Assembly (NCBI RefSeq): GCF_002836775.1
Contig: NZ_PJAQ01000066.1
Coordinates: 186,001 to 250,000, forward strand
Length of the DNA stretch: 64,000 bases
Source: Colwellia sp. 12G3
Lineage (GTDB): Bacteria; Pseudomonadota; Gammaproteobacteria; Enterobacterales; Alteromonadaceae
Direction of reading: 5' to 3'
The translations under genes and the position numbers were made by a program. Below are positions 33,577 through 64,000 of the stretch, in pieces. The first letter of the stretch is position 1; each line of letters opens with the position of its first letter. The notes beneath the pieces are model-generated. The model made no database searches. It was not told the DNA's origin and worked only from the letters and a program-made list of their open reading frames with translations.

Positions 33577-33975
33577 TTAGCACTATATTTAAATGACTAA
33601 AACAACAAGCAGCACTCCGTCCCCAAAAATATCGATGAGATTATTTTTAATTAATTAACGAATAAATCATGTACTAATTTTAATGAAAAACCGACAAAAA
33701 TACTTTTATTGATTTATTAAGTTATTGATTTAAATGTTTTTGTTGTTCATTGTCGTTTTTGTTCGAAAAGTTGTCGTTATTTTACTAGGGGGAGTTTTAC
33801 CAGCTGATACTATCGAATTATGCAAGAGGCAGGAAGCCACGCTAAGCAAAATTATATATTAAGTGAAGCATATAAAAAGAGAACGGATAGTTCATCTAAA
33901 TAGTTAATCAAAACAATAATAATTAGCGTCCTTAATAATAAGGCGACTTAACATTAAAGATATAGTGGAGTACAT
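33577..33975 (+). other. Upstream region of the first subtilase
   Basis: About 400 nt without a gene. It holds the shared 37-nt element at 33752-33788 and an inverted related site AAAAACCGACAAAAA at 33686-33700. The remainder is AT-rich and I see no further structure. Confidence 0.45.
33752..33788 (+). promoter_or_regulatory. Candidate operator shared with the third subtilase gene
   Basis: It contains two GTCGTT half-sites exactly 21 bp apart and ends TTTACTAG. It matches 28 of 37 positions, without gaps, to 62180-62216 read on the minus strand. Both copies lie 140-190 nt upstream of a secreted subtilase gene, in the same orientation. Confidence 0.6.
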
Positions 33976-35808
33976 ATGAAGATTTCTACATTTGCAACAT
34001 CGATAATTGCCCTAGCGGTTACTGCAGCATTTACAGCTCAAGCAGCTGACGACAGATATATCATTAAGGTAGATGAAAGCAAAAAAGGCATTGTAAAAGC
34101 ATTAGCTAAAAAATTAGGTGCTGAATTAAAAGTAGACGGAAATGGTTTCATCGCAGCTTCATTTGCGGGTAAAGATTTAAGCCAAGTTAAAGGTTTATTA
34201 AACAACCCACATGTTCAAATGGTTGAAGAAGATCAACGTCGTATGCCTCTTTCTGTATATAGTGATACTGCTGGTAACCCTATGGGTGCTCAGCTTACTC
34301 CTTATGCTGTTGTTCAATCTCAAGCTGACCAAGTTAATTTTAACGCTGGTGCAGGCATGAAAGTATGTGTTATCGATTCAGGCTTAGATCGCTCTAACCC
34401 AGATTTCTTATGGAACAACATCTCAGGTACTAACAATTCTGGTACAGGTAACTGGGACGAAAATGGTGGTCCACATGGTACTCACGTAGCAGGTACTATT
34501 GGCGCAGCAGATAACAATATTGGTGTTGTTGGTATGGCACCTGGCGTTGATATGCATATAGTTAAAGTTTTTAATGCTGACGGTTGGGGATATTCTTCTG
34601 ATTTAGCTTATGCCGCAAACCGATGTTCTGATGCAGGTGCTAACATCATCAGCATGAGTCTTGGTGGTGGTGGTGCAAACAGCACTGAAGAGAATGCTTT
34701 TCAAGCTTTTACTGATAATGGTGGTTTAGTTCTAGCTGCTGCGGGTAACGATGGCAATAATGTTCGTTCATTCCCTGCAGGTTACTCGTCAGTAATGATG
34801 ATTGGTGCTAACGACAACAATAATGCGATTGCTGATTTTTCTCAGTTCCCTAGCTGTACCGAAACAACAGGCAGAGGTAAGCAACAAACAACAACAACCA
34901 ATGAAACAATTTGTGTTGAAGTAACAGCGGGTGGTGTTGATACATTATCTACTTACCCTGCAGGCATGGCAACGAGTGCTTCAATGAGTGTTGATGGTGC
35001 TGCTTTTGCAACATCCGCAATGGAAAACGCGGGTTCAGTGTCGGGTAATACTTACAACATGGGTACGGCTGAAGCTGTTGATAATGGCGCAAACGGTTTG
35101 ATTTGTGTTATAGAGCGTGGCGTTATTTCTTTCCATGATAAAGTTTTGAACTGTGAAAATTCAGGTGGCGTTGGTGCAGTTCTTTATAATAACGAACCGG
35201 GTATGCTTTATGGTACATTGGGAGATACTAACGCAACGAGTATCCCTGCGGTAGGTGCTTCTCAAGAAGACGGCGCAGCGTTATTAGTAGCCAATACAGT
35301 TGATATTATTATTGGTACTAGTGACTATGGTTTAATGAGTGGTACTTCAATGGCTACGCCAGCAGTATCTGGTATGGCTGCGTTAGTTTGGTCTAACCAT
35401 AACGGCTGTACTGGTACAGAGATTCGTGATGCATTAAAAGCAACGGCTGAAGATAATGGCGCTCCAGGTCATGATGATTACTTCGGTCACGGTATCGTGA
35501 AAGCAAAAGCGGCAAGTGATTACCTAACGGCTAACGGTTGTGGCGGTGGTGTAACTCCTCCTCCTGTAGGCGGCGATATTACAGCTGACGCATCAGCATA
35601 TCGTGCTAAAGGTAAAAACAAAGTTGACGTAACTTGGTCTGGTGCAGCTACTTCAAGTGTCGACATCTACCGTAACAGTTCATTAAGAACAACTACGGCA
35701 AACGATGGTGCGTACACTGATAGCTTCAGAACTTCGGGTTCATTCACTTATAAAGTTTGTGACCAAGGTACTGATAATTGTTCAGCTGATGTAACGGTAA
35801 ACTTCTAA
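33976..35808 (+). CDS. Secreted S8 subtilisin-like protease with PA insert
   Basis: A 610-residue preproprotease. The order is a signal peptide (1-23), an inhibitor I9 prodomain (about 25-90), and a catalytic domain with Asp134 (VIDSGLDRS), His167 (GPHGTHVAG), the oxyanion Asn258 (AAAGNDG) and Ser458 (GTSMATP). A PA domain of about 110 residues (about 330-440, ICVIERG...AVLYNN) is inserted before the Ser. A small Ig/fibronectin-like C-terminal domain follows a Pro-rich linker (about 523-610). It should be exported and activated by removal of the prodomain. It has its own upstream region with the shared 37-nt element and is closed by a strong terminator. Confidence 0.95.
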   Translation: MKISTFATSIIALAVTAAFTAQAADDRYIIKVDESKKGIVKALAKKLGAELKVDGNGFIAASFAGKDLSQVKGLLNNPHVQMVEEDQRRMPLSVYSDTAGNPMGAQLTPYAVVQSQADQVNFNAGAGMKVCVIDSGLDRSNPDFLWNNISGTNNSGTGNWDENGGPHGTHVAGTIGAADNNIGVVGMAPGVDMHIVKVFNADGWGYSSDLAYAANRCSDAGANIISMSLGGGGANSTEENAFQAFTDNGGLVLAAAGNDGNNVRSFPAGYSSVMMIGANDNNNAIADFSQFPSCTETTGRGKQQTTTTNETICVEVTAGGVDTLSTYPAGMATSASMSVDGAAFATSAMENAGSVSGNTYNMGTAEAVDNGANGLICVIERGVISFHDKVLNCENSGGVGAVLYNNEPGMLYGTLGDTNATSIPAVGASQEDGAALLVANTVDIIIGTSDYGLMSGTSMATPAVSGMAALVWSNHNGCTGTEIRDALKATAEDNGAPGHDDYFGHGIVKAKAASDYLTANGCGGGVTPPPVGGDITADASAYRAKGKNKVDVTWSGAATSSVDIYRNSSLRTTTANDGAYTDSFRTSGSFTYKVCDQGTDNCSADVTVNF

Positions 35809-36103: not shown

Positions 36104-37807
36104 ATGTTGAACAATTCAGTAAGAAAAATAATTAAACCAATTTCATTGTTAGGCTTCGTTGGTATCTCAACTTGGCTTGTCATTATTTCATTAAGCGGTA
36201 CGGTTAATGAGAAAACTCAGTCTTATATTATCAGTTCAGCCGATTACCCGTTATTAAAAGAAAAAGTCTTAGCGCTCAATGCAGAGCCTTCTCATGAGCT
36301 CGCCATTATTAATGCTGTAGCCGTTGATTTGACTCAACATCAGCTTTCCCAATTACAGAAAAGCATTGATGTTAACGTTACTCAAAACCATAAAGTAGAA
36401 TTGTCAGGTGGTAAAGCTTGGGGAAAAAGAAAATGGCAACCCAAATCGGTAGTTAATGACTTAATCGATGCCACATCAGCTCACGCAACGCGCAATTTTG
36501 GCGATGGTGTGACCATTGGCTTTTTAGATACAGGCCTCGATCAATTACAAGGGACATCTACAGGATTAGGCTTATCGACTGATTTATATGGCAGAGATAA
36601 GTTTTGGGGCACTTATGACGCGATAAATAACGCCATCAGTAATTATAGTAATGAAGAAAGCGGTCATGGTACACATGTTGCCAGTATTGCAGGAAACGCT
36701 GACTATGATGTTTACGGAAAAGTTTATGGTGTTGCACCGAACGCTTCGCTAGTAGGTATTAAAGCATTCGATGCTGAGGGCAAGGCTACTTATGCTGACG
36801 TTATCCGTGGTATTGACTGGGCTCTACAAATCAAAGATCAAATTAATCTTAGAGTGCTTAATATGTCGTTCAGTGGACCTGCACGCTCTTATTATTGGGA
36901 AGACCCTTTGAACCAAGCGGTAATGAAAGCATGGCAAGCAGGTATTGTTGTGGTAGCTTCTGCTGGTAATAACGGTCCTGACCCTATGACAATCGGTGTG
37001 CCGGGTAATGTTCCTTACATTATTACTGTCGGCGCGATGACTGATAATTATACTGAGTCAGATGCAACCGATAACAAGTTAGCCTCGTTTAGTGCCGCAG
37101 GACCAACAGTAGAGGGATTTGTTAAGCCAGAGATTGTCGCACCAGGCGGACATTTATCAGGTTTAATGGCTTTTGACACACAAATAGTACAGGAGCATCC
37201 AGAGTTTCATGATGGTGGCCGTTATTTTGAAATGTCAGGCACGTCTCAAGCTGCTGGTGTTGTATCTGGAGTCGTGGCCTTGATGTTGTCACAAGAGCCA
37301 ACTTTGACACCAGACGAAGTGAAATGTCGCTTAATGGACAGTGCTCATGCCGCATTCGATAATAATAGTGAACTTGCTTATAGCGTTTTTCAGCAAGGTT
37401 CAGGCATGGTTAATGCTGCGGATGCCTTAACGAGTACGGCTTCGGCATGTGCGAATCAAGCATTAGATATTGCTCAAGACTTAGAAGGGAATGAACACTT
37501 TTTTGGGCCAGCAAACATTAATAATGACGGAAATTTTTATGTTGAAGGCTTAGGTGATGAATATGTGTGGCGATTGGATGACAGTAACCTAGATGGTGAT
37601 ACCATAATTTGGAGAATGAATTTCGCTAAGAATGCACTAGATTGGAGAAATACTGCATCAACGGATACCATAATTTGGAGAATGAATGTCGAAACTGACA
37701 CTATAATTTGGAGAATGAATCTGGAGTCAGATACAATCATTTGGAGAATGAGTGTAGCTAATAGCACTACCGATATTAATGTTAATAATTGGGTTGAACA
37801 ACAATAG
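36104..37807 (+). CDS. S8 subtilase with tandem DTIIWRMN tail
   Basis: A 567-residue protein whose N-terminal hydrophobic stretch (about 13-31) is a signal peptide or membrane anchor. A short prodomain-like region runs about 38-100. The triad is Asp142 (FLDTGLD), His188 (GHGTHVAS), Ser381 (MSGTSQAAG), with oxyanion Asn289 (SAGNNGP). No PA domain is inserted. From about 485 the tail is dominated by 11-residue tandem units: DTIIWRMN at 499-506, 521-528, 532-539 and 543-550 (last as MS), a worn unit about 510-517, and the related DEYVWRLD at 485-492. Such W-containing C-terminal repeats are reminiscent of other S8 proteins, but I know no assigned role. AGGGGAAAAAAA precedes the ATG. Confidence 0.9.
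   Translation: MLNNSVRKIIKPISLLGFVGISTWLVIISLSGTVNEKTQSYIISSADYPLLKEKVLALNAEPSHELAIINAVAVDLTQHQLSQLQKSIDVNVTQNHKVELSGGKAWGKRKWQPKSVVNDLIDATSAHATRNFGDGVTIGFLDTGLDQLQGTSTGLGLSTDLYGRDKFWGTYDAINNAISNYSNEESGHGTHVASIAGNADYDVYGKVYGVAPNASLVGIKAFDAEGKATYADVIRGIDWALQIKDQINLRVLNMSFSGPARSYYWEDPLNQAVMKAWQAGIVVVASAGNNGPDPMTIGVPGNVPYIITVGAMTDNYTESDATDNKLASFSAAGPTVEGFVKPEIVAPGGHLSGLMAFDTQIVQEHPEFHDGGRYFEMSGTSQAAGVVSGVVALMLSQEPTLTPDEVKCRLMDSAHAAFDNNSELAYSVFQQGSGMVNAADALTSTASACANQALDIAQDLEGNEHFFGPANINNDGNFYVEGLGDEYVWRLDDSNLDGDTIIWRMNFAKNALDWRNTASTDTIIWRMNVETDTIIWRMNLESDTIIWRMSVANSTTDINVNNWVEQQ
37598..37762 (+). repeat. Five 33-nt tandem repeats within the subtilase tail
   Basis: Units begin at 37598, 37631 (degenerate), 37664, 37697 and 37730, each encoding an 11-residue DTIIWRMN-type unit. 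The core ATAATTTGGAGAATGAA is nearly identical at DNA level in four of them, which points to recent expansion or conversion. Confidence 0.88.
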
Positions 37808-37905: not shown

Positions 37906-40900
37906 GTGAAAAATATTCTTTTCTTTTTATTATCAATTATCATTAATTTCAGTGCTATTGCACAAGAAATTAAACTATTTAAAAACTTTGGTATTGATAA
38001 TCCAATGTCATACAACTTTGTTAGAACTATTGCTCAAGATGAAGATGGTTTTATGTGGTTTGGTTCATCCGAGGGATTAGACCGTTTTGATGGACACCAA
38101 ACACTTAGCTTCCAGCATGATAGTGCTAAACCCAACTCACTAAGTTCTAGTGTAATCAGTCGAATTCTTATTGATAAACAGCAACGACTATGGGTAGCTA
38201 CTTTCGGGGGAGGCTTGAATTTATATAGAGAAAATAGTCAAGATTTTCTACATTTTACCACTAAAACACACAGCTCAGGACTGACAAATGATAGCGTTAA
38301 TGCATTATTTGAGGATAGTGAAGGTAAAATTTGGGTTGCTACTGAAAATGGTTTAAATGTTCTCAGCTACCGTGAAAAAATTTGGTCAACTCAACAAATA
38401 TTCCAAGAGCTAGGTAACCCTAATAGCCTTACCCACAATACTGTACTCTCAATTATTGAAACCGATAATCAAGAAATTTGGGTTGGAACTAATGGTGGAG
38501 GAATTTCGGTATTTGATCTGCTAGGGAATTTTATTAAATCTATTAAGTATGGCGATCAAAATAGTGCTACTTATGTTAATAAATTTGTTAGTAGTATGTA
38601 TTTAGATATTAATGGGGATATTTGGATAGGTACAGTAGATAGTGGTTTATTAAAATATACACCTACGACAGGAAAATTTACTTATTATCAAAATAATGTA
38701 GATGATCAGTCAACAATTAGCAGCAATGCAATAAGTAATATTTATCAGGATTCAGAACAGAATATTTGGATTGCCACTGATAATGGCTTATCTATTTATA
38801 ATTATAAAACTAATGACTTTAGTCGATACAATTATTCACCAAATAACCCATACAGTATAAGTAATGATTTTGTTCTTACTTTTTTTGAAGATAATCATAA
38901 GATGATGTGGGTCGGTACTTTTTCTGGAGTAAATCGGTGGGATCCTAATATGGCTACCTTCCGACAATATAGTACTCAAACAAATCCAGTCTTAAAAAAT
39001 CACAACATCACTAGTTTTGCTCAATTCGATAAAGATAATTTGTATTTTAGTACCTATAGCGCAGGAATTTATCTTTTGTCACAATATGATAATTCAATTT
39101 CAGCTGTAGATTTTAATGCTTTGTTTTTAGAATATAGAATTATGACTCTGTTTGCTGATGGCAACACTTTATGGGTGGGGACAAGAGCTTCTGGGTTATA
39201 TTCAATAGATTTAGCAACGAATAACGTGACTGAATATAAGCATGATGCTGAAGATAGTAACTCTATTTCCGCTAATAGTATTACAGATATTATAAAAGAT
39301 ATGGATGGTAATCTTTGGGTATCTACTTTTCATCAAGGCATTAATTTATTAAATAATGATGGTACTTTTAAACGTTTTATTAAAAATAAGTCAAACATAG
39401 AAAAAGGACCCGGCAGTAATCATGTTGTACAGTTGCTGGAGGATGATCAGGGCTTTATTTGGCTGGCTACTTTTGGCGGTGGAGTAAGTCGTTTTGACCC
39501 TAGAAATGAAACATTTATTCATTTAAAACATAAGGAAAAAAAACCTAACGGTATCTCAGATGACTTTTCATGGATTATGTTACTGGACAATAATAAAAAC
39601 CTTTGGTTTGGCACCCAATCTTCAGGCCTAAGTATATTAAGTAGAGAAAATCGTTATAGTAACAACTTTGCATTTACTCACCTTGATACTAAAGATGGTA
39701 TGAAAAGTTTGACGGTATATGGCATCACTCAAGATGTTTATGGTGATATCTGGTTTAGTACTAATAAAGGAGTATCTCGTTATTCCATCAATGATAAAAG
39801 TTTTAAGAATTTTAACCTAACTCATGGCCTAGTTGATCTAGAATACACTCATTCTGCAGCGTTTCTTGCAATGGACAACACAATATATTTTGGTGCAGGC
39901 AAAGGGATGAATAGTATCAATCCGGGAAAAATTAATACCAAACTTTTTTCGCCAGAAGTTCGATTAACCAGTATTCTAAAGTTAAATGAACCTATGTCCT
40001 TAGGGAGTAAATTATCTGAATTAAGACAATTAGAACTTGATTACAGTGAACAACTTATTTCGTTTGAATATGTAGGCTTAAACTATGCGGACCCTAAGTC
40101 AACGCGCTATAAATATCGTTTGAAGGGCTTTGATGAAGAGTGGATTGATGCAGGTAAATCAAGACGAGCCACTTATACTAACTTACCTTCAGGTAGTTAT
40201 CAGCTGCAAGTTGTTGCAAGTAATGGCGACAACATCTGGAGTGACCCTGGTTTATCACTCGATATAACAGTGAAACCAGCGCCTTGGAATACTTGGTGGG
40301 CATATGTACTTTATGCAGCATTGATTGCGTTATTGTTGTTAGCATATTCGCGTTTTTTAAACCGAAAATTACTTATTGAACAGCAACAAAAAGAACTTTT
40401 CAAGCGTCAAGTTAAAGAGAAAACACAAGAATTTCATTTGAAAAATGTGGAACTTGAACAGGCAAACCAACAGCTAGAAGATGCTGCAACGGTGGATAAA
40501 GTGACAGGTGTTAAAAGTCGCCGATATTTAGACATTTATATCGAACAAGCCAGTCAACTTATGTCTCAGATTCATGAAAATATCCTGCCAGTACAACGTA
40601 GTATATTGCCACGTTTATACCTTGTAATGATTAAGCTAGATAACATCGAGCAAGTAACAAATAGCCAATTGGTCGACCTGACAGACTTGTTGCTTTATAG
40701 CCGAAATAGTGATGATTTAGTTATTCGATGGGCAGATGATACCTTTGTTATTATTGGTTACGAGAAAGATGATAATGCTCGTGAACTGGTTACTCGTTTA
40801 ACTGATCGCTTTGCACAAGTGTTAGGTCATAGCATTGAGTCAGGTATGGCTTATTCTTTTTACCCGTTTAACTTTGAGCAACCCATGGCGCTATCATGGG

Positions 40901-41067
40901 ATCAAGTGAGTGTGCTTACTGAACATGCATTAAAAGTGGCAAGCACTAACAACATGAGCTGGTTAGGTTTTTATGCCCCTCAGACTCAACCGTTTAACTA
41001 TTTAGATGTCATTCAGCAGCAAAGCATTGACGAGTTAAGTAAACTGGTCAAATTAAAGCAGGGGTAG
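37906..41067 (+). CDS. Propeller / Y_Y_Y membrane sensor with degenerate GGDEF domain
   Basis: A 1053-residue protein that starts at GTG 37906 with a signal peptide (1-19). About 14 two-component-regulator propeller repeats of the type (I/L)W(V/F)(A/G)T..G(L/I) fill residues 40-680, enough for two seven-bladed propellers. A Y_Y_Y domain (about 715-785) precedes one helix (about 798-816), a coiled coil, and a C-terminal diguanylate-cyclase-like domain (about 860-1040). The GGDEF loop in RWGGDEF is replaced by RWADDTF, so synthase activity is very unlikely. In related sensors this periplasmic part is fused to a histidine kinase. The neighbouring convergent gene encodes a kinase/receiver/AraC protein, so the two may be functional partners. 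Confidence 0.9.
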   Translation: MKNILFFLLSIIINFSAIAQEIKLFKNFGIDNPMSYNFVRTIAQDEDGFMWFGSSEGLDRFDGHQTLSFQHDSAKPNSLSSSVISRILIDKQQRLWVATFGGGLNLYRENSQDFLHFTTKTHSSGLTNDSVNALFEDSEGKIWVATENGLNVLSYREKIWSTQQIFQELGNPNSLTHNTVLSIIETDNQEIWVGTNGGGISVFDLLGNFIKSIKYGDQNSATYVNKFVSSMYLDINGDIWIGTVDSGLLKYTPTTGKFTYYQNNVDDQSTISSNAISNIYQDSEQNIWIATDNGLSIYNYKTNDFSRYNYSPNNPYSISNDFVLTFFEDNHKMMWVGTFSGVNRWDPNMATFRQYSTQTNPVLKNHNITSFAQFDKDNLYFSTYSAGIYLLSQYDNSISAVDFNALFLEYRIMTLFADGNTLWVGTRASGLYSIDLATNNVTEYKHDAEDSNSISANSITDIIKDMDGNLWVSTFHQGINLLNNDGTFKRFIKNKSNIEKGPGSNHVVQLLEDDQGFIWLATFGGGVSRFDPRNETFIHLKHKEKKPNGISDDFSWIMLLDNNKNLWFGTQSSGLSILSRENRYSNNFAFTHLDTKDGMKSLTVYGITQDVYGDIWFSTNKGVSRYSINDKSFKNFNLTHGLVDLEYTHSAAFLAMDNTIYFGAGKGMNSINPGKINTKLFSPEVRLTSILKLNEPMSLGSKLSELRQLELDYSEQLISFEYVGLNYADPKSTRYKYRLKGFDEEWIDAGKSRRATYTNLPSGSYQLQVVASNGDNIWSDPGLSLDITVKPAPWNTWWAYVLYAALIALLLLAYSRFLNRKLLIEQQQKELFKRQVKEKTQEFHLKNVELEQANQQLEDAATVDKVTGVKSRRYLDIYIEQASQLMSQIHENILPVQRSILPRLYLVMIKLDNIEQVTNSQLVDLTDLLLYSRNSDDLVIRWADDTFVIIGYEKDDNARELVTRLTDRFAQVLGHSIESGMAYSFYPFNFEQPMALSWDQVSVLTEHALKVASTNNMSWLGFYAPQTQPFNYLDVIQQQSIDELSKLVKLKQG

Positions 41068-41267: not shown

Positions 41268-44200
41268 CTAATCAGGTGTTGAGTCTTCTTGTGCCATTTT
41301 CTGCTGGTATTGTTTTGGCGTGCAATGATAACTTTCTTTAAAGCATCGGCCAAAGTAGGTTTGTGAAGAAAAACCTACATCTAAGGCAATACGGCCTATT
41401 TGTGAACCACTCATCAGTAATTCTCGTGCCTTTTTCAAACGAAACTCTTTGATGAAGTTATTAGGTGTTGTACCGAGTATCACTTTAATTTTTCGTTGTA
41501 ATTGCCGCTCACTCACCGCGAGTTCTTTTGCCAGTAATGATATATCTAGCTCAGGCTCGGTGTAGTGTTTAGCAATAAGCGCTTCGAGTTTATGCAAAAA
41601 TTTATCTTCTAGGCTACTTTGTTCGACTGTCTCTTGCGTTAATTTTGCCACATTTTTCTGACTGGTTGTTTTTCTCTCTGCTTTTTGATCATCGTTAAAT
41701 TGTTGTAAATAGCGTTTTTGTAACTGCTTCCTATTAGCTATTAAGTTTTGAATTCTTGTTAATAATTCATGTTGGTTGAAAGGTTTACTTAAATATTCAT
41801 CAGCATTGAGTTTGAGGCCCTGTAACCTGCTTTCGAGATCAGATCTTGCGGTAAGTAGTATCACTGGAATATGCGCGGTCATTTCGTCTTGCTTTAGTTG
41901 TGTTAATACTTCAAAACCATCAATGCCAGTTAACATTAAATCGCAAACAATTAAGTCGGGGATATATTCTTGCGCTAATTGTAGGCCAAGTTCACCACTA
42001 CCTGCCAGAATGCAATGATGCTGTTGCTCTATAACTTGTTTTATATGACTTTGCATATCGAGATTATCTTCGATTACTAACACGACTTGCTGTGAATGGT
42101 TCGTTTGATTACTTGTTGCAGAGCGCTGTTCTGTTAGTAATGAGGTGACTTCATTCTCGGAGATACTGATCGCTATTTCTGTTTCAATATCCTTTGCTGA
42201 TGCTCGGGGTATTGACAGGCTAAACTTACTGCCATGACCCTGTTCACTTACTAAGGTTATGCGCCAGCCATGCGCTTTTACGAGTTCATTAACAAGTGAT
42301 AAACCAATGCCAACACCGAAGGTAGCATGGTTTTTTACATCGTCTGCTCGTTGAAAACGTTCAAAAATTTTAGTTTGAGAATCTTTATTAATACCTATGC
42401 CTGAGTCGATAATATCTACAATAAGGGTGTCTTGCTCTGCATAAGCATTTACTTGAACAGAGCCGCCTTTAGGTGTGTACTTTATTGCATTGGCAAGTAA
42501 ATTAAATATAATTTTTTCAAAAGCTTGTCCATCACAATCTAACCACAAATCGTCAGGAATATTACTGCTAAAAGTTAAATGACTTTGTGATGCTAAGCGA
42601 GAAAAAGAATCAACAGGCATCATCATTAATGTTTTTAAGCGGTAAGTGCTCAGCGACAGTTGTGGGTTGTCACTTAAACGTGAAAGCTCTAACAGTTGCT
42701 CAACCATACGTACTAGCCGTAAGCCATTACGTTTGGCTGTTGTTAATTCTTCACTTTCAAGTTCATCGGATGTTTTGGTTATGTATCTATCTATGATGCC
42801 ATTTATGATGGTTAGCGGTGTTCTAAACTCATGTGAAATGTTTGCGATGAATTTATCTTTTAATTCTAAGGCTTGCTTTTCAGCATGCTTTCTTACCGAT
42901 AAGTTAATGAACGTTATGACAATAAGTGGCACTTTAGCCCGTTCAGCAAATTGTAACTCTGCTTGTGCTGGAAATTCGGTGCCGTCTGAACGCAGTGAGA
43001 TACATTCAACAGAAATGCCCAAACTTTTACGTTGTAATGAATAGACATTACTTTGGAAGTCAAAAAAGAAGTGCATCTCGTCTTTTTCTGCAAATAAACT
43101 ACTCACAGATATGCCTTTTAATTCTTGTTCAAGACTTTGAAACATCTGCACTGCTGCAGGATTAGCGGATAATATTTCCCCCTTGATAGAGGTAGTTAAT
43201 ATGGCATTATTTGAGGCGCTGACTATCGCTTTGTCTTCACTATTGATCAACGCATCTGCTAAGTCAGTATTTAGACTATTAAGCTGTTGGTGGCTGTTTT
43301 TTTCTGTGAGTAAATTTTTCTTGAGCTTATTAGTGTAACCACGACGCGTAATAGCAATGCTGGATAGCAATATAGAGCCAATAAGTAGCCAAAATAAAAT
43401 GATAATAGATTGTAGGTTTGAATTAACACTGTAAAACAATTTCTGCTCGTAACCATATAAATGAAATGCAGTTGGTATGGTCATAAGCAGTAAAATTGAT
43501 AGTTCTGGGCTGTTTTCCTTCTCAATAGGCTTAGGTAATTCTCTTGCTATTAAGGTGATATTAGCCGTGAGTATTAATAAAAAATAGGGTAGTAAAGAAA
43601 TAAGCTGAAGATAATAGCTGTTGGCGCTAATTAACGTTGAGTTATTATCAAGATAAGCGCTTGCATGGCCTATCAGTAAAAAGCTTGCGCTCAAAGAAAG
43701 TAATGCAAACGTATACCGCCAGAAATTATGCTTACAGCTGTATAAACACCACATTAATTTAACAAGAATCAGTGCATTGATTAGTAAATGAAATAGTAAG
43801 GAGGGCTTAGATGTTTGGTATATTTCCTCCGAAAATTCAGCAGGTAAAAGAATTAAATAACAAAAGCAAATTAGCGTGAAAAATACCGCGGGTACTCGTC
43901 CATTAATATATTTGCTTAGCGGTAAATTACTTAAATGAGGATTGGTCTCTATCGCCAATAAAATAAAGAAATAAATAAAGAGTGAAGCAAAATCTTGATA
44001 TAGCTGTTGGCTAATGCTTGCTGGCGTGCCATTTAATATTTTACTCGCTACTACTACGAGTGTTGCTAACAGTAGGTATTGCCAAAATAATTTAAATGAG
44101 CGAGACGTCTTTTTTTTATAACAAAAAAATAAAAATATACTACTGATAATTTGTACTGAAGATAGGGCAACGTTAGAAATGATGTCCGAAGAAATGGCTA

Positions 44201-44282
44201 GCCAACTAGCAACCAAGTGGTTAGGGATAAAGATGATCAGGCCAGTTAAGGCTAATATTAATTGTCTAATAGCTTTGTGCAA
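41268..44282 (-). CDS. Hybrid histidine kinase with receiver and AraC DNA-binding domains
   Basis: A 1004-residue protein that combines sensor and regulator. The N-terminal half (about 1-315) holds about eight to nine helices without a large periplasmic domain. A PAS domain (about 350-460) follows, then HisKA with His484 in ISHEFRTPL, HATPase (NLLANAIKY, DSGIGI, FGVGIGLSLV), a receiver with Asp781 (VCDLMLTG) and Lys in LSKPF, and an AraC-type helix-turn-helix pair (about 905-1000, LAKELAVSERQLQRKIK; IALDVGFSSQTYFGRCFK). This is the cytoplasmic half of the hybrid two-component class known from Bacteroides, but with a membrane-embedded instead of propeller sensor. It is convergent with the propeller sensor at 37906-41067. 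DNA targets are unknown. Confidence 0.93.
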   Translation of the reverse strand: MHKAIRQLILALTGLIIFIPNHLVASWLAISSDIISNVALSSVQIISSIFLFFCYKKKTSRSFKLFWQYLLLATLVVVASKILNGTPASISQQLYQDFASLFIYFFILLAIETNPHLSNLPLSKYINGRVPAVFFTLICFCYLILLPAEFSEEIYQTSKPSLLFHLLINALILVKLMWCLYSCKHNFWRYTFALLSLSASFLLIGHASAYLDNNSTLISANSYYLQLISLLPYFLLILTANITLIARELPKPIEKENSPELSILLLMTIPTAFHLYGYEQKLFYSVNSNLQSIIILFWLLIGSILLSSIAITRRGYTNKLKKNLLTEKNSHQQLNSLNTDLADALINSEDKAIVSASNNAILTTSIKGEILSANPAAVQMFQSLEQELKGISVSSLFAEKDEMHFFFDFQSNVYSLQRKSLGISVECISLRSDGTEFPAQAELQFAERAKVPLIVITFINLSVRKHAEKQALELKDKFIANISHEFRTPLTIINGIIDRYITKTSDELESEELTTAKRNGLRLVRMVEQLLELSRLSDNPQLSLSTYRLKTLMMMPVDSFSRLASQSHLTFSSNIPDDLWLDCDGQAFEKIIFNLLANAIKYTPKGGSVQVNAYAEQDTLIVDIIDSGIGINKDSQTKIFERFQRADDVKNHATFGVGIGLSLVNELVKAHGWRITLVSEQGHGSKFSLSIPRASAKDIETEIAISISENEVTSLLTEQRSATSNQTNHSQQVVLVIEDNLDMQSHIKQVIEQQHHCILAGSGELGLQLAQEYIPDLIVCDLMLTGIDGFEVLTQLKQDEMTAHIPVILLTARSDLESRLQGLKLNADEYLSKPFNQHELLTRIQNLIANRKQLQKRYLQQFNDDQKAERKTTSQKNVAKLTQETVEQSSLEDKFLHKLEALIAKHYTEPELDISLLAKELAVSERQLQRKIKVILGTTPNNFIKEFRLKKARELLMSGSQIGRIALDVGFSSQTYFGRCFKESYHCTPKQYQQKMAQEDSTPD

Positions 44283-59665: not shown

Positions 59666-62038
59666 TTATGGGTTATAAGTTACGTCTAAGCTAACACCGC
59701 TTGCTGCAGAGTAACCGTAAACACCTATATGCCAAGTATCAGCTACTGGATTAGTAAATGCACAGGCTTCAGTGTTGCCACTTTTGTACGGACGACAGTC
59801 ATAAGTTGATGAAGTAGGTTGAGAGCCACGTCTAATATACATATCCGCATCACCCGTACCGCCACTCATAGCAAAATCTAATGTTGCCATGCCTGCAGGA
59901 ACGTCAATGGTGTAGTATGTCCAAGCTCTTCGAGCAACGCTAATATCTGTTACTGAAGCACTGCCACCAGTAGCGCCGCCACCCGTAGTCGGCTCAGTGA
60001 AACTACCTGTTAAGCTAACACCGGTAAATGCTGAGTAAGCAATCACTTTAACATGGTAAGTACCCGCTTGAGCGCTAGCGATTGGGCAGCTTTCTATGTT
60101 GCCACCTTTATAAGGACGACAATCATAGCTAGTACTTGTTGGTGCTGAGCCAAATTTAACGTAAAGATCAGCATCACCTGTACCATCAGCCATAGCAAAG
60201 TTTAACTCAGTGGCACCAGCAGGAACTTCCATAGTAAAGCTAAGTTCTGTGCTTGAGCCAAGATTAGTTTTCGCTACACCATTAGTAAGGGTATTGCCTG
60301 TTGGTGGTGGAGGAGGAGTTGTACCGCCGCCACAACTCGCTGCTAACGCATCAGACGCTGCTTTTGCTTGTACTAAGCCAAAACCTGTTTTGTCATCACG
60401 ACCTGCTGCACCTAAATCAACCGCAGTATTTTTTAATGCACTACGTACATCGTCGGCAGTACAGTTCGGGTTATTGCTCCATACCAATGCGGCAACACCA
60501 GTTACATGAGGCGTAGCCATAGAAGTACCATTGTAATAGGCATAATCTTGCGAGCCATTAACGGTTAAGCTAGCGTTAGTTCCTAATTGAGTCATTAGTT
60601 GTTGACCTAATGCACGGCTAACAGAAACGGTTGGCACGGTTACATCTGTATTTGCATCAACTAAGAAAGGATTTTGTAAGCCAGGTCGAGTACTGTCACT
60701 ATAAACGATAACAGCAGAGGCGCCGGCATCAGCACACGCTTTCGCAGGGTTGATTTCAGGGTAGTTACTACCCTTTTGGTTATCATTACGCTCAGCTAAA
60801 CAAATGTTGCCATTGACGTTTGAACAGCTGTAGCTGCTACCTGAAATGGTACAGCTTGATAATACGCCATTGGCAGCACCATCAACATTGCTAACAACGA
60901 AGTTACCAGCACTTTGTATGTAATGCGTTTGAGGAACGACACTGTCATTACCATAAGTTGTTGAACCGACAGTAATAAAACCTAAACGACCGTCACCAGC
61001 AACTGTTGATAAAATAGCTTCACCAGGTGCAGATACTTCAACTTGACTCGTATATTGTGAAAATTCAGCATGTTGGTTATTGCTGTCTAAAGCGCCAACA
61101 GCCATTACCACGTCGTAAGACGCTGGATATGAGAGAGTAGCGTCACCATCATTACCAGAAGCGGCAATTAATAATACGCCAGTATCGGCAGCAGCTTGTA
61201 ATGCATTTTTTTCAGTAACACTTGAACCTGCACCACCTAAACTCATATTAACAACTTTAGCGCCATTGCTTACACAAGTATCCACTGCGTCAGATAAGTC
61301 ACCAGAGTAACCCCAACCTGCTTCGTTAAATACTTTAACAATATGAAGGTTAACGTTAGTGCTTGGTAAAATACCGACAACACCTTCGCTGTTATTTACG
61401 CCAGCAATAGTACCTGCTACGTGCGTTCCGTGAGAACCACCGTTTTGATACCAGTTACCTGTACCTGAGTTATTCGTACCCGATGCATTATTTGCATTTA
61501 AATCAGGGTTAGATTGTTCGTAACCTGAGTCAATAATACACACTGTCATGTTCGATGCATCAGTGTCTGTTAATTGATCAGATTGAGTTTTTGATATGCC
61601 CCAAGGTTGGTTTTGCGCCATTAAAAAACGTTGATAATCTGGTTCAATCGATACAACAGAAGGGTGTTTGCGTAGTTTCTCAATGAATTTTTCAACATCT
61701 TTTACCGAATGCATTTCATCAAGCGCGATTACGTGGCTATTATTTTTTAATATTTTAACGTGCTTTAAATTTAAGCCGATTTTTTTAGCTAGACCTGGAG
61801 GAACCGTCTTACCTTGCTTCTTGTCTTTAAAGGTAATAATTAATCTGTCAGTGTAATCAGTACGTGCAAGTTTTTGCTCTGCTCGCCACTGTGCAAAATT
61901 TAACGTTGAAGATTGTGCCGCAGTCACTTTGTTTACTTTATTAAGTTGCGCCTGAGGTGCTGCATTACTCGCGGCACTAGTCACGGCTAAAACTGATAAG
62001 GCTATGGTACTTAGTACAAGCTTGTTATTATTTTTCAT
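59666..62038 (-). CDS. Secreted S8 subtilase with PA insert and two PPC domains
   Basis: A 790-residue preproprotease: signal peptide (1-27), an inhibitor I9 prodomain (about 60-140, with SVVSIEPDYQRF), a catalytic domain with Asp170 (IIDSGYEQS), His203 (GSHGTHVAG), oxyanion Asn296 (AASGNDG) and Ser506 (GTSMATPHV), and a PA domain of about 110 residues (about 370-480). A proline linker (about 573-580) leads to two PPC domains (about 590-685 and 695-790), each with GTGDAD(L/M)Y and YDCRPYK. It is a relative of the first subtilase at 33976-35808, but has a different C-terminal cargo. Both genes share the 37-nt upstream element. PPC domains are usually removed during secretion or help bind insoluble protein. 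Confidence 0.96.
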   Translation of the reverse strand: MKNNNKLVLSTIALSVLAVTSAASNAAPQAQLNKVNKVTAAQSSTLNFAQWRAEQKLARTDYTDRLIITFKDKKQGKTVPPGLAKKIGLNLKHVKILKNNSHVIALDEMHSVKDVEKFIEKLRKHPSVVSIEPDYQRFLMAQNQPWGISKTQSDQLTDTDASNMTVCIIDSGYEQSNPDLNANNASGTNNSGTGNWYQNGGSHGTHVAGTIAGVNNSEGVVGILPSTNVNLHIVKVFNEAGWGYSGDLSDAVDTCVSNGAKVVNMSLGGAGSSVTEKNALQAAADTGVLLIAASGNDGDATLSYPASYDVVMAVGALDSNNQHAEFSQYTSQVEVSAPGEAILSTVAGDGRLGFITVGSTTYGNDSVVPQTHYIQSAGNFVVSNVDGAANGVLSSCTISGSSYSCSNVNGNICLAERNDNQKGSNYPEINPAKACADAGASAVIVYSDSTRPGLQNPFLVDANTDVTVPTVSVSRALGQQLMTQLGTNASLTVNGSQDYAYYNGTSMATPHVTGVAALVWSNNPNCTADDVRSALKNTAVDLGAAGRDDKTGFGLVQAKAASDALAASCGGGTTPPPPPTGNTLTNGVAKTNLGSSTELSFTMEVPAGATELNFAMADGTGDADLYVKFGSAPTSTSYDCRPYKGGNIESCPIASAQAGTYHVKVIAYSAFTGVSLTGSFTEPTTGGGATGGSASVTDISVARRAWTYYTIDVPAGMATLDFAMSGGTGDADMYIRRGSQPTSSTYDCRPYKSGNTEACAFTNPVADTWHIGVYGYSAASGVSLDVTYNP

Positions 62039-62179
62039 CTGATATTGACTCCATCATTTGTGTTTAACGTTTATTACAGCAGCCCTATGACTAATGTTTT
62101 ACGTATTATTTTTATGAGGTAGTTTAAGACTTTAGCAAAAACCAACGTTTATCAGATTGAATCTTTAGGCACTATTTAA

Positions 62180-62216
62180 CTAGTAAATTACCGACAGGTT
62201 TTAACAAAAAACCGAC
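62180..62216 (-). promoter_or_regulatory. Candidate operator shared with the first subtilase gene
   Basis: Read on the minus strand it has two GTCGGT half-sites 21 bp apart and ends TTTACTAG. It matches 33752-33788 at 28 of 37 positions. It lies about 140 nt upstream of the subtilase start at 62038, in the same orientation as the other copy to its gene. Confidence 0.6.
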
Positions 62217-62317
62217 GTTTGTTTATGCGAAACTGTTGAAAATAGGAGGCTGGCTGTGTTTTGTCGCTTTTATCTGAAAAACTGTCATGCTTTTTATGAA
62301 GGACGTTTACTCATAAA

Positions 62318-62732: not shown

Positions 62733-63236
62733 TTATTTGGACACTTTAATGCTGAGCTGGTTAGTTGAACATTGGTTTGTTAAAGACACTTCATGGTGCA
62801 GGTAATGCCAATTTTTTGGGGCTAACTGAACGGTATATTCGCCCGGCGTTATTGAATAGGCTTGTGTTAAATCAAGTGTTATTTCTACTTTGTCTTTCGC
62901 TGAGAATACTAAATAATCTTCAATAGACGGGCTAGAACGTTTTACCATCATGCCGTTATAAACTAACAGCTCACCGACATGATCTTTAATGATAAATAAA
63001 TCGGATAAAAAACCTTCAAACGGGGTATACCAGCTTAAGAGCTGTAATTTATGTTCAGTTAAGTTTGTTACGGTAAAGGTAAGATAAACACCGTGACTTA
63101 ACTTTTGCTCTACGGATGCTGATATTTCGCATCGAAAAGGCTCAACACCTACAGTTTTAATATCCACAGGTGTATGTCCTTCGACTGAATGAGTAATAAA
63201 AATGAATAAAATGATAGCAAAAAATGATTTTTTCAA
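62733..63236 (-). CDS. Stand-alone M35 prodomain-like protein, putative inhibitor or chaperone
   Basis: A 167-residue secreted protein; TTG start at 63236 after GAGAAG, signal peptide about 1-20. Residues 30-150 follow the layout I recall for the N-terminal propeptide of bacterial deuterolysin-like M35 proteases: LSWYTPFEGFLSDLFIIKDHVG, LVYNGMMVKRSSPS, then LDLTQAYSITPGEYTVQL. It lies 97 nt after the stop of an M35 protease gene on the same strand. A free prodomain could act as a folding helper or a periplasmic inhibitor protecting the producer. The function is inferred. Other explanations include a fragment of an ancient duplicated protease. Confidence 0.7.
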   Translation of the reverse strand: MKKSFFAIILFIFITHSVEGHTPVDIKTVGVEPFRCEISASVEQKLSHGVYLTFTVTNLTEHKLQLLSWYTPFEGFLSDLFIIKDHVGELLVYNGMMVKRSSPSIEDYLVFSAKDKVEITLDLTQAYSITPGEYTVQLAPKNWHYLHHEVSLTNQCSTNQLSIKVSK

Positions 63237-63333: not shown

Positions 63334-64000
63334 TTAATTTTGATTTGGCGTATTTTCCGCAAAATATTCATGACTATCCGCATTGTTTAACGCTTGATCA
63401 GGATCTGAATTCGCTAAGCTCTGTGCACCAGATTGGCCATAAACAACATCATCTGTACCAGCAACGGCATTAAAATGACTTAACTCATGAATAATTGTGC
63501 CAGCTCTAGAGTCAGTACCTAATTCATTAGCACTCCAAAAAGCGTTACACATATAAACTTTATAAGGTTGATTTGGGTAAACATAGGCAAAGTACGATTT
63601 TTTACAACTACAGTCAAACGTAATTGGCTTAGTATCTATCGCATCATTTATCGCATCAAAGTGGGCAACGGCAGTGTTGTAGCGAGCAGATGTCGCATTA
63701 CCAAACCAAGTGTCGTAACGTGAAGACGTATTATTTGCTGAATGAGCATTTAAGTATGAAACAGAGCTATTTGCTATTTGGTCTGCAGCACCTAAAGCAC
63801 TAATAAGTTCAGTTTTTTGTCCTGCACTACAGCGACCAGTAAAACAAGTTCCACCGATACAGTCACTAGAAGTTCCACCGCCAGGTTTACCTTTGTTCGC
63901 TGTTGTTCCCTTTGATTCAAAACCTTCTAAATAAATATAAGCAGCATTTGATTGCAGTTTTTCAGCTTTCTTTTGCTGGCCTTTATTGCTAAACAAATGG
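63334..64000 (-). CDS. M35 deuterolysin-type metalloprotease (5' part outside window)
   Basis: The frame is open to the window edge, so the N-terminus (signal and prodomain) is missing; about 222 residues are visible. The zinc site is HELSH, about 55 residues before the end, with the M35 extension GTDDVVYG about 12 residues later (aspartate as third ligand). Cysteines are frequent (SSDCIGGTCFTGRC; FDCSCKK; YMCNAF), as expected for disulphide-linked Lys-N-like enzymes. The last residues are NADSHEYFAENTPNQN. Members of this branch cut before Lys and are secreted. It is followed by a prodomain-like gene. Confidence 0.92.
   Translation of the reverse strand, partial: HLFSNKGQQKKAEKLQSNAAYIYLEGFESKGTTANKGKPGGGTSSDCIGGTCFTGRCSAGQKTELISALGAADQIANSSVSYLNAHSANNTSSRYDTWFGNATSARYNTAVAHFDAINDAIDTKPITFDCSCKKSYFAYVYPNQPYKVYMCNAFWSANELGTDSRAGTIIHELSHFNAVAGTDDVVYGQSGAQSLANSDPDQALNNADSHEYFAENTPNQN

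Follow-up and report, generated by a model that had tools for sequence, protein, structure and literature searches.

The two 37-nt elements A and B, found upstream of two subtilase genes of Colwellia sp. 12G3, are probably operators of a secreted-protease regulon, and the protein binding them is likely to be an AraC-type hybrid kinase, a single polypeptide whose gene lies in the same window (the whole 64,000-nt stretch of contig C11 analysed here, part of the 5.06-Mb source genome G000; Table 1). This reading draws on the motif, its fixed spacing and position, its recurrence before peptidase genes, and its association with the kinase gene by co-occurrence and linkage. Secretion of the proteins was judged by eye from their N-termini.

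Table 1. Features of the window and its edge (window coordinates unless a contig is given)
Feature	Position	Strand	Remarks
Decayed B-type element upstream of subtilase A	33673..33697	-	Matches R2 (13.7 bits) only over model positions 1-25
Element A	33752..33788	+	Predicted tandem operator; half-sites 33752-33766 and 33773-33787; ends in CTAG; 39.2 bits with R2
Extended -10-like sequence TGATACTAT	33805..33813	+	Putative promoter of subtilase A; CTAG-to-TACTAT distance 19 nt
Subtilase A	33976..35808	+	610 aa; S8 and PA domains
Third subtilase	36104..37807	+	Member of conserved cluster
Reg_prop/Y_Y_Y/GGDEF protein	37906..41067	+	Member of conserved cluster
Hybrid kinase, candidate regulator	41268..44282	-	1004 aa; membrane N-terminus, PAS, histidine kinase, receiver, AraC-type HTH
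Subtilase B	59666..62038	-	790 aa; S8, PA and PPC domains
-10-like sequence TTCAAT	62156..62161	-	Inferred, weak; 18 nt after CTAG
Element B	62180..62216	-	Predicted tandem operator; half-sites 62216-62202 and 62195-62181; 35.6 bits with R2
Decayed A-type element upstream of subtilase B	62261..62294	+	15.1 bits with R1, 11.4 bits with R2
M35 peptidase gene, 3' part	63334..63996	-	Start at G000:C11:250392, just outside the window

The elements and their motif

Subtilases A and B are paralogues (38% identity), and the nearest relatives of A (80-93% identity) occur in Colwellia and one Thalassotalea. Direct comparison of the two elements recovered the 28 of 37 ungapped identities reported by the first-pass annotation, and the GTCG(T/G)T half-sites that it placed 21 bp apart were seen at offsets 0 and 21 of both; the distance from the 3' end to the start codon, 187 nt for A and 141 nt for B, agrees with the 140-190 nt claimed. 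The A/B pair ranked first, with 28 matches against 27 for the runner-up, among 780 pairs of upstream regions taken from 40 of the 41 listed ORFs of the window (one ORF was excluded, its upstream sequence being too short). With a profile of the full element the next best place in the window scored 14.8 bits, compared with 39.2 for A and 35.6 for B, both of which belong to the training set of that profile. The full 37-bp motif is specific, but the bare pair of half-sites is not enriched: GTCGKT-N14..16-GTCGKT occurs at 9 places in the source genome and its reversed pattern at 33, so that the short GTCG signature is unspecific and the signal resides in the full motif. A search with GTCGKTNNTTTACTAG, allowing one mismatch, was also tried as a genome motif and abandoned, as it gave 3 places against 8 for the reversed control and nothing useful past the two known sites.

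In relatives the element follows the consensus GTCG-N6-T-N3-AA-N5-GTCG-N7-RCTA, that is, two tandem half-sites 21 bp apart, each roughly TGTCG-N6-TRCKA and arranged as direct repeats. The 17-nt spacer between the GTCG blocks is fixed in 38 of 38 sites (20 A-type and 18 B-type loci), all of them selected for a block recognisable in alignments or in upstream sequence. Self-similarity and conservation were assessed on 57 stretches of 117 nt, reduced to 41 with identities below 70%: the self-similarity of the profile is 0.57 at offset 21 and at most 0.35 at the remaining offsets from 10 to 30, and conservation in the 41 thinned sites is confined mainly to positions 0 to 38, the outer columns holding at most 0.43 bits. 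Both GTCG blocks rank among the most conserved columns. Two direct half-sites at a distance of about 21 bp are the layout expected of an AraC-type tandem operator, and this is what was found.

Recurrence before peptidase genes

A strict pattern, composed after the Colwellia, Pleionea and CG22 sites had been seen, was applied to 394 genomes of the order and found 18 places in 10 of them. Whether the motif also precedes other hydrolase genes had been raised as a check, and the answer is affirmative: 17 of the 18 sites lie before peptidase or peptidase-like genes and one before an AraC-domain hybrid kinase gene. The genes 3' of them comprise 14 S8 genes, one M4 gene, one small M12/M10-like gene (below the Pfam cut-off), one shortened A-like ORF and the kinase gene. 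A length control, the same pattern with the last gap one base longer, gave 5 places in 5 of the 394 genomes; three of these fall inside ORFs, one has no ORF nearby, and no peptidase family was found in any gene after them. The shortened A-like ORF (L156, in G135:C148) has 186 aa, is 73% identical to A over 146 aa, and joins N- and C-terminal parts without the middle, which reflects either a real deletion or an assembly fault.

The profile R2, built from 52 sites, was applied to 24 kinase-positive and 16 other genomes picked by handle. A place at E < 1e-3 was present in 22 of the 24 and in none of the 16 (best value 0.0027, in G120), and in 19 of the 22 positive genomes the sites or their A/B orthologues were in training, the exceptions being G257, G189 and G345. 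Six R2 places are neither training sites nor situated before A or B; five of them precede peptidase genes (M4, S8, S8, M35 and S8, at 88-372 nt) and the sixth a gene for a 477-aa protein without a family. Kinase-positive genomes also hold 19 weaker places (1e-3 < E <= 0.1), nine of which were examined: five precede peptidase genes (M6, S8, S8, S8 and S9), and the other four lie inside PhzF, at a place with no 100-aa ORF within 450 nt, before an SpvB-like gene and before an Ig-domain gene. That some weaker matches in kinase-positive genomes fall inside a gene or before non-peptidase genes counts against the regulon reading. A tenth weak place is the degraded site of G010, visible in the alignment. 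The 16 kinase-free controls gave 12 places at E <= 0.1 in 11 genomes; among the six examined, four fall within ORFs, one precedes a helicase gene and one has no ORF nearby, with no peptidase gene downstream of any. A profile match in G008 (L139) lies within a PhzF-like gene and was set aside as chance.

The source genome has a third place, before a small M10-like gene, which scored 20.7 bits with R1, a profile that had not seen it, and 26.4 bits with R2, in whose training it was included; the 58% identical relative of this gene in G278 likewise has a strict site. The small M10/M12-like proteins (L137:2047-2841, minus strand, and L161:1634-2410, plus strand) read QEIGHVFGLGH where we take HExxHxxGxxH to be expected, and their putative peptidase activity is uncertain.

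A weak element (14.1 bits, E 0.34) precedes the start of the M35 gene by about 115 nt, at about G000:C11:250508-250544 on the minus strand, just beyond the window; its second half has GACG in place of GTCG, and a better element is found before the M35 gene of G171. Between B and the M35 gene a short gene (62733-63236, minus strand) resembles the N-terminal domain of the full-length G171 M35 protein (28% over 110 aa, E 1e-8); its product may be a free-standing pro-domain or an inhibitor.

For the third subtilase no element was found in the window, and its G189 relative (61% identity) carries a weak one. The gene has a 33-nt tandem repeat (37670-37755) that encodes TIIWRM-type units at the C-terminus, and GFIWRT repeats, in large number, close the relatives from G189 and G065. 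In both of these genomes a gene of the third-subtilase type has an M4 gene as its divergent neighbour; in G189 each of the two is preceded by an element (G189:C147:5714-5933), and in G065 a weak element precedes the M4 gene (G065:C2:186690-186724). The adjacent Reg_prop/Y_Y_Y protein, with GGDEF at its end, adjoins the third subtilase in most element-bearing loci and is possibly a second signalling output.

The candidate regulator

The hybrid kinase carries HisKA, HATPase_c, Response_reg and HTH_18 domains above the Pfam cut-offs in one chain, which is the architecture of the HTCS proteins. Its N-terminal 330 residues contain about seven hydrophobic segments and matched no Pfam family; the best NCBIfam match of the kinase, MASE3_PAS_HK, is far below its cut-off (203.9 versus 560), and a structural model of the sensor, computed from three sequences, is all-helical at low confidence (mean pLDDT 50). 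At E <= 1e-135 the kinase is found in 17 of 394 genomes, including all 10 that have a strict site, a nesting with P = 9e-16 if the genomes are taken as independent, which, being related, they are not. Among 41 relatives, a kinase match at E <= 1e-100 was obtained in 11, that of G030 over the C-terminal half only; the 10 with a full-length kinase coincide with the 10 in which B (at least 80%) and two strong sites each (E <= 6.7e-5) occur, and the remaining 31 gave no site better than 0.006, the place at 0.009 in G036 being the CG22 site. G257, G345 and G189 are kinase-positive without a strict site, and their sites were found by the profile. G065 has the kinase and the weak site before its M4 gene, G326 the kinase and a weak, unconvincing site before an S8 gene, and in G306 and G197, where the kinase is also present (residues 348-995 only in G197), no convincing site was found with R2.

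The gene neighbourhoods also connect the element with the kinase. In the Pleionea locus L022 the order is S8 gene, kinase, site and subtilase A; in G363 and G389 the site lies between the kinase and a subtilase gene, and G389 has an additional site upstream of the kinase gene. In the CG22 MAG a gene for a 527-aa one-component protein (L140:2255-3838, minus strand) is divergent to an A-like gene and its site. In this protein neither a kinase nor a receiver domain was found; it aligns with the hybrid kinase over two stretches, the membrane part at 24% over 264 aa (E 9e-14) and the HTH region at 29% over 212 aa (E 3e-23).

The element could belong to a genuine protease regulon and nevertheless be bound by another AraC protein or response regulator, the kinase being a mere neighbour or acting upstream. 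AraC-type proteins are numerous, the kinase occurs in G306, G326 and G197 with no convincing site, in the CG22 MAG the site accompanies another AraC protein, one of one-component type, and the co-occurrence recorded for the kinase is also expected for its cluster neighbours, the S8 gene at 36104 and the GGDEF gene at 37906. We nonetheless regard this alternative as unlikely, given that the kinase is present in 10 of 10 strict-site genomes, that the site adjoins its gene in Pleionea, G363 and G389, with a site of its own upstream of the G389 kinase, and that the CG22 protein has the membrane part and HTH in common with it.

Divergent loci in relatives and the split in the window

In one scan of the genome contigs, relatives of subtilase A were found at 53 loci. 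The separation of the two subtilase genes by 28 kb, from which the first-pass annotation had started, is not their usual state but a local one: B adjoins A divergently in 16 of the 53 loci (Colwellia and Thalassotalea), with the elements inverted and back to back between them. The inter-element gap measures 55-60 bp in all 16 loci and exactly 58 bp in 11, where gap identity averages 43% compared with 79% for the A sites and 75% for the B sites. A gap of about 58 bp places the element centres about 95 bp apart, or nine helical turns, and the retention of this spacing although the intervening sequence is not retained suggests contact between two putative complexes at the divergent pair.

Scanned over the 53 loci (676 kb), R2 found 36 places at E < 1e-3, most of them training sites, all upstream of A (and B) and distributed over 21 loci. 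The remaining 32 (from Shewanella, Rheinheimera, other Pseudoalteromonas, a Colwellia MAG and others) had no site except one place at E 0.16, one of these loci, L013, holding only 204 nt upstream. Neither a divergent B nor a full kinase was found beside A in these 32, the exceptions being a B-like gene in another orientation in L043 and partial matches in L025 and L047. A CHASE5 kinase with an SBP gene before subtilase A was considered and dropped, as it is present there only in L045 of the 53 loci.

In the window, at both loci, the partner site whose gene is gone is degraded (13.7 and 11.4 bits versus 39.2 and 35.6). The split thus looks like duplication of the whole unit followed by loss of one gene per copy, and sites deprived of their gene would appear to decay. 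The paralogy of A and B, their divergent adjacency in 16 related loci and the degraded partner sites kept at both window copies could also be read to mean that the resemblance of the elements is leftover homology from an inverted duplication that copied gene and promoter together, the very case named beforehand as one that would undo the regulatory interpretation. It is very improbable, since gaps of 58 bp have diverged far more than the sites flanking them, and since S8, M4, M6, M35 and M10/M12-like genes, unrelated peptidase families, and the kinase gene carry the element, which co-duplication with the gene does not explain. The A/B pair possibly arose by duplication; persistence of the element needs selection.

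Promoter context

Downstream of element A, TGnTAnTAT is kept in most A-type orthologues, its TAnTAT following CTAG at an unvarying distance of 19 nt; over all sites the -10 signal is weak (0.2-0.4 bits per column). The CTAG of A-type sites stands at -35 distance from a -10-like sequence, and the element might be taken for the promoter of an alternative sigma factor (CTAG as -35, TACTAT as -10) with no activator site. This is extremely improbable, given that the highly conserved GTCG blocks lie upstream of any -35, that a tandem 21-bp structure is foreign to such a promoter, and that the -10 columns are weak across families. A chance match of two AT-rich upstream regions has a negligible probability: when the two 300-nt regions were dinucleotide-shuffled, two of 500 pairs reached at least 26 matches and one of these reached 28, but chance is refuted by the conservation of the elements among orthologues and by their recurrence in genomes of distant lineages.

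Proposed mode of action

The dimeric, AraC-like site before secreted proteases that had been suggested from the two elements is favoured by the 21-bp tandem half-sites, the unrelated peptidase families and the co-occurrence and linkage with the AraC-type kinase. We infer that the kinase binds the element and activates transcription under control of phosphorylation and of a ligand. A dimer of AraC domains would occupy the two direct-repeat half-sites on one face of the DNA; as the element lies just upstream of a -10-like sequence, the second half-site would reach -35, and polymerase would be recruited to a promoter that has a -10 but no good -35. Phosphorylation of the receiver would control the action of the AraC domain, and the membrane-embedded part of the kinase would sense a cue. 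With less assurance, we lean towards a so far undescribed marine gammaproteobacterial system in which unrelated secreted peptidases, and sometimes the kinase itself, are switched on directly by a membrane kinase that responds to an external or membrane cue, with inverted dimers about 95 bp apart at the divergent pair and with the same kind of sensor also fused straight to an AraC domain.

Relation to known systems

At the araBAD promoter of E. coli, AraC recognizes the direct half-sites I1 and I2, 21 bp apart, the downstream one overlapping -35, in a region of divergent promoters. The arrangement described here has in common with it two direct half-sites 21 bp apart and divergent promoters, and its downstream half-site may likewise reach -35; AraC differs in being soluble and arabinose-binding, in its half-site sequence and in having no phosphorelay.

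According to a 2013 paper (PMC3878776), the HTCS regulators of Bacteroides combine histidine kinase, receiver and AraC HTH in one polypeptide, their predicted operators are direct repeats spaced 21 bp on average, which is interpreted as a dimer bound to one face of the DNA, their sensor is periplasmic and ligand-binding, of COG3292 or sugar-binding-protein type, and the family is called unique to Bacteroidetes. On that description the present system is alike in the kinase-receiver-AraC chain, in the direct repeats of about 21 bp and in having the regulator gene near target hydrolase genes. Unlike the Bacteroides proteins, with their periplasmic carbohydrate sensor and role in polysaccharide utilisation, it has a membrane-embedded sensor of no Pfam family and is found in gammaproteobacteria, with 17 of 18 strict sites before peptidase or peptidase-like genes. 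Because sensor type and target genes differ, its working would be HTCS-like, but two defining features of the Bacteroides family, as portrayed there, are lacking. XylRA of marine Vibrio, as presented in PMC12125979, is an AraC-domain activator with direct repeats, a LacI-type xylose-binding sensor and xylan genes as targets; the AraC HTH, the two direct repeats before hydrolase genes and the marine gammaproteobacterial host are shared, whereas the LacI-type xylose sensor and the xylan targets are not. The extracellular proteases of Kangiella are discussed in PMC6000758, and looking through its text for the terms AraC, histidine kinase and two-component gave no match.

Meaning for protein use by marine bacteria

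A search of the literature, covering openly licensed papers, found no description of this motif or regulator. The breakdown of particulate protein is driven by the secreted proteases of marine bacteria, and the control of the genes for these enzymes seems, to our knowledge, to be little described. If the proposed reading is true, it would supply the motif, a candidate for the regulator and the target genes together, in culturable bacteria, and protease induction would become directly testable; the one-polypeptide HTCS plan, associated with polysaccharide use in Bacteroidetes, would then extend to gammaproteobacteria and their use of protein.
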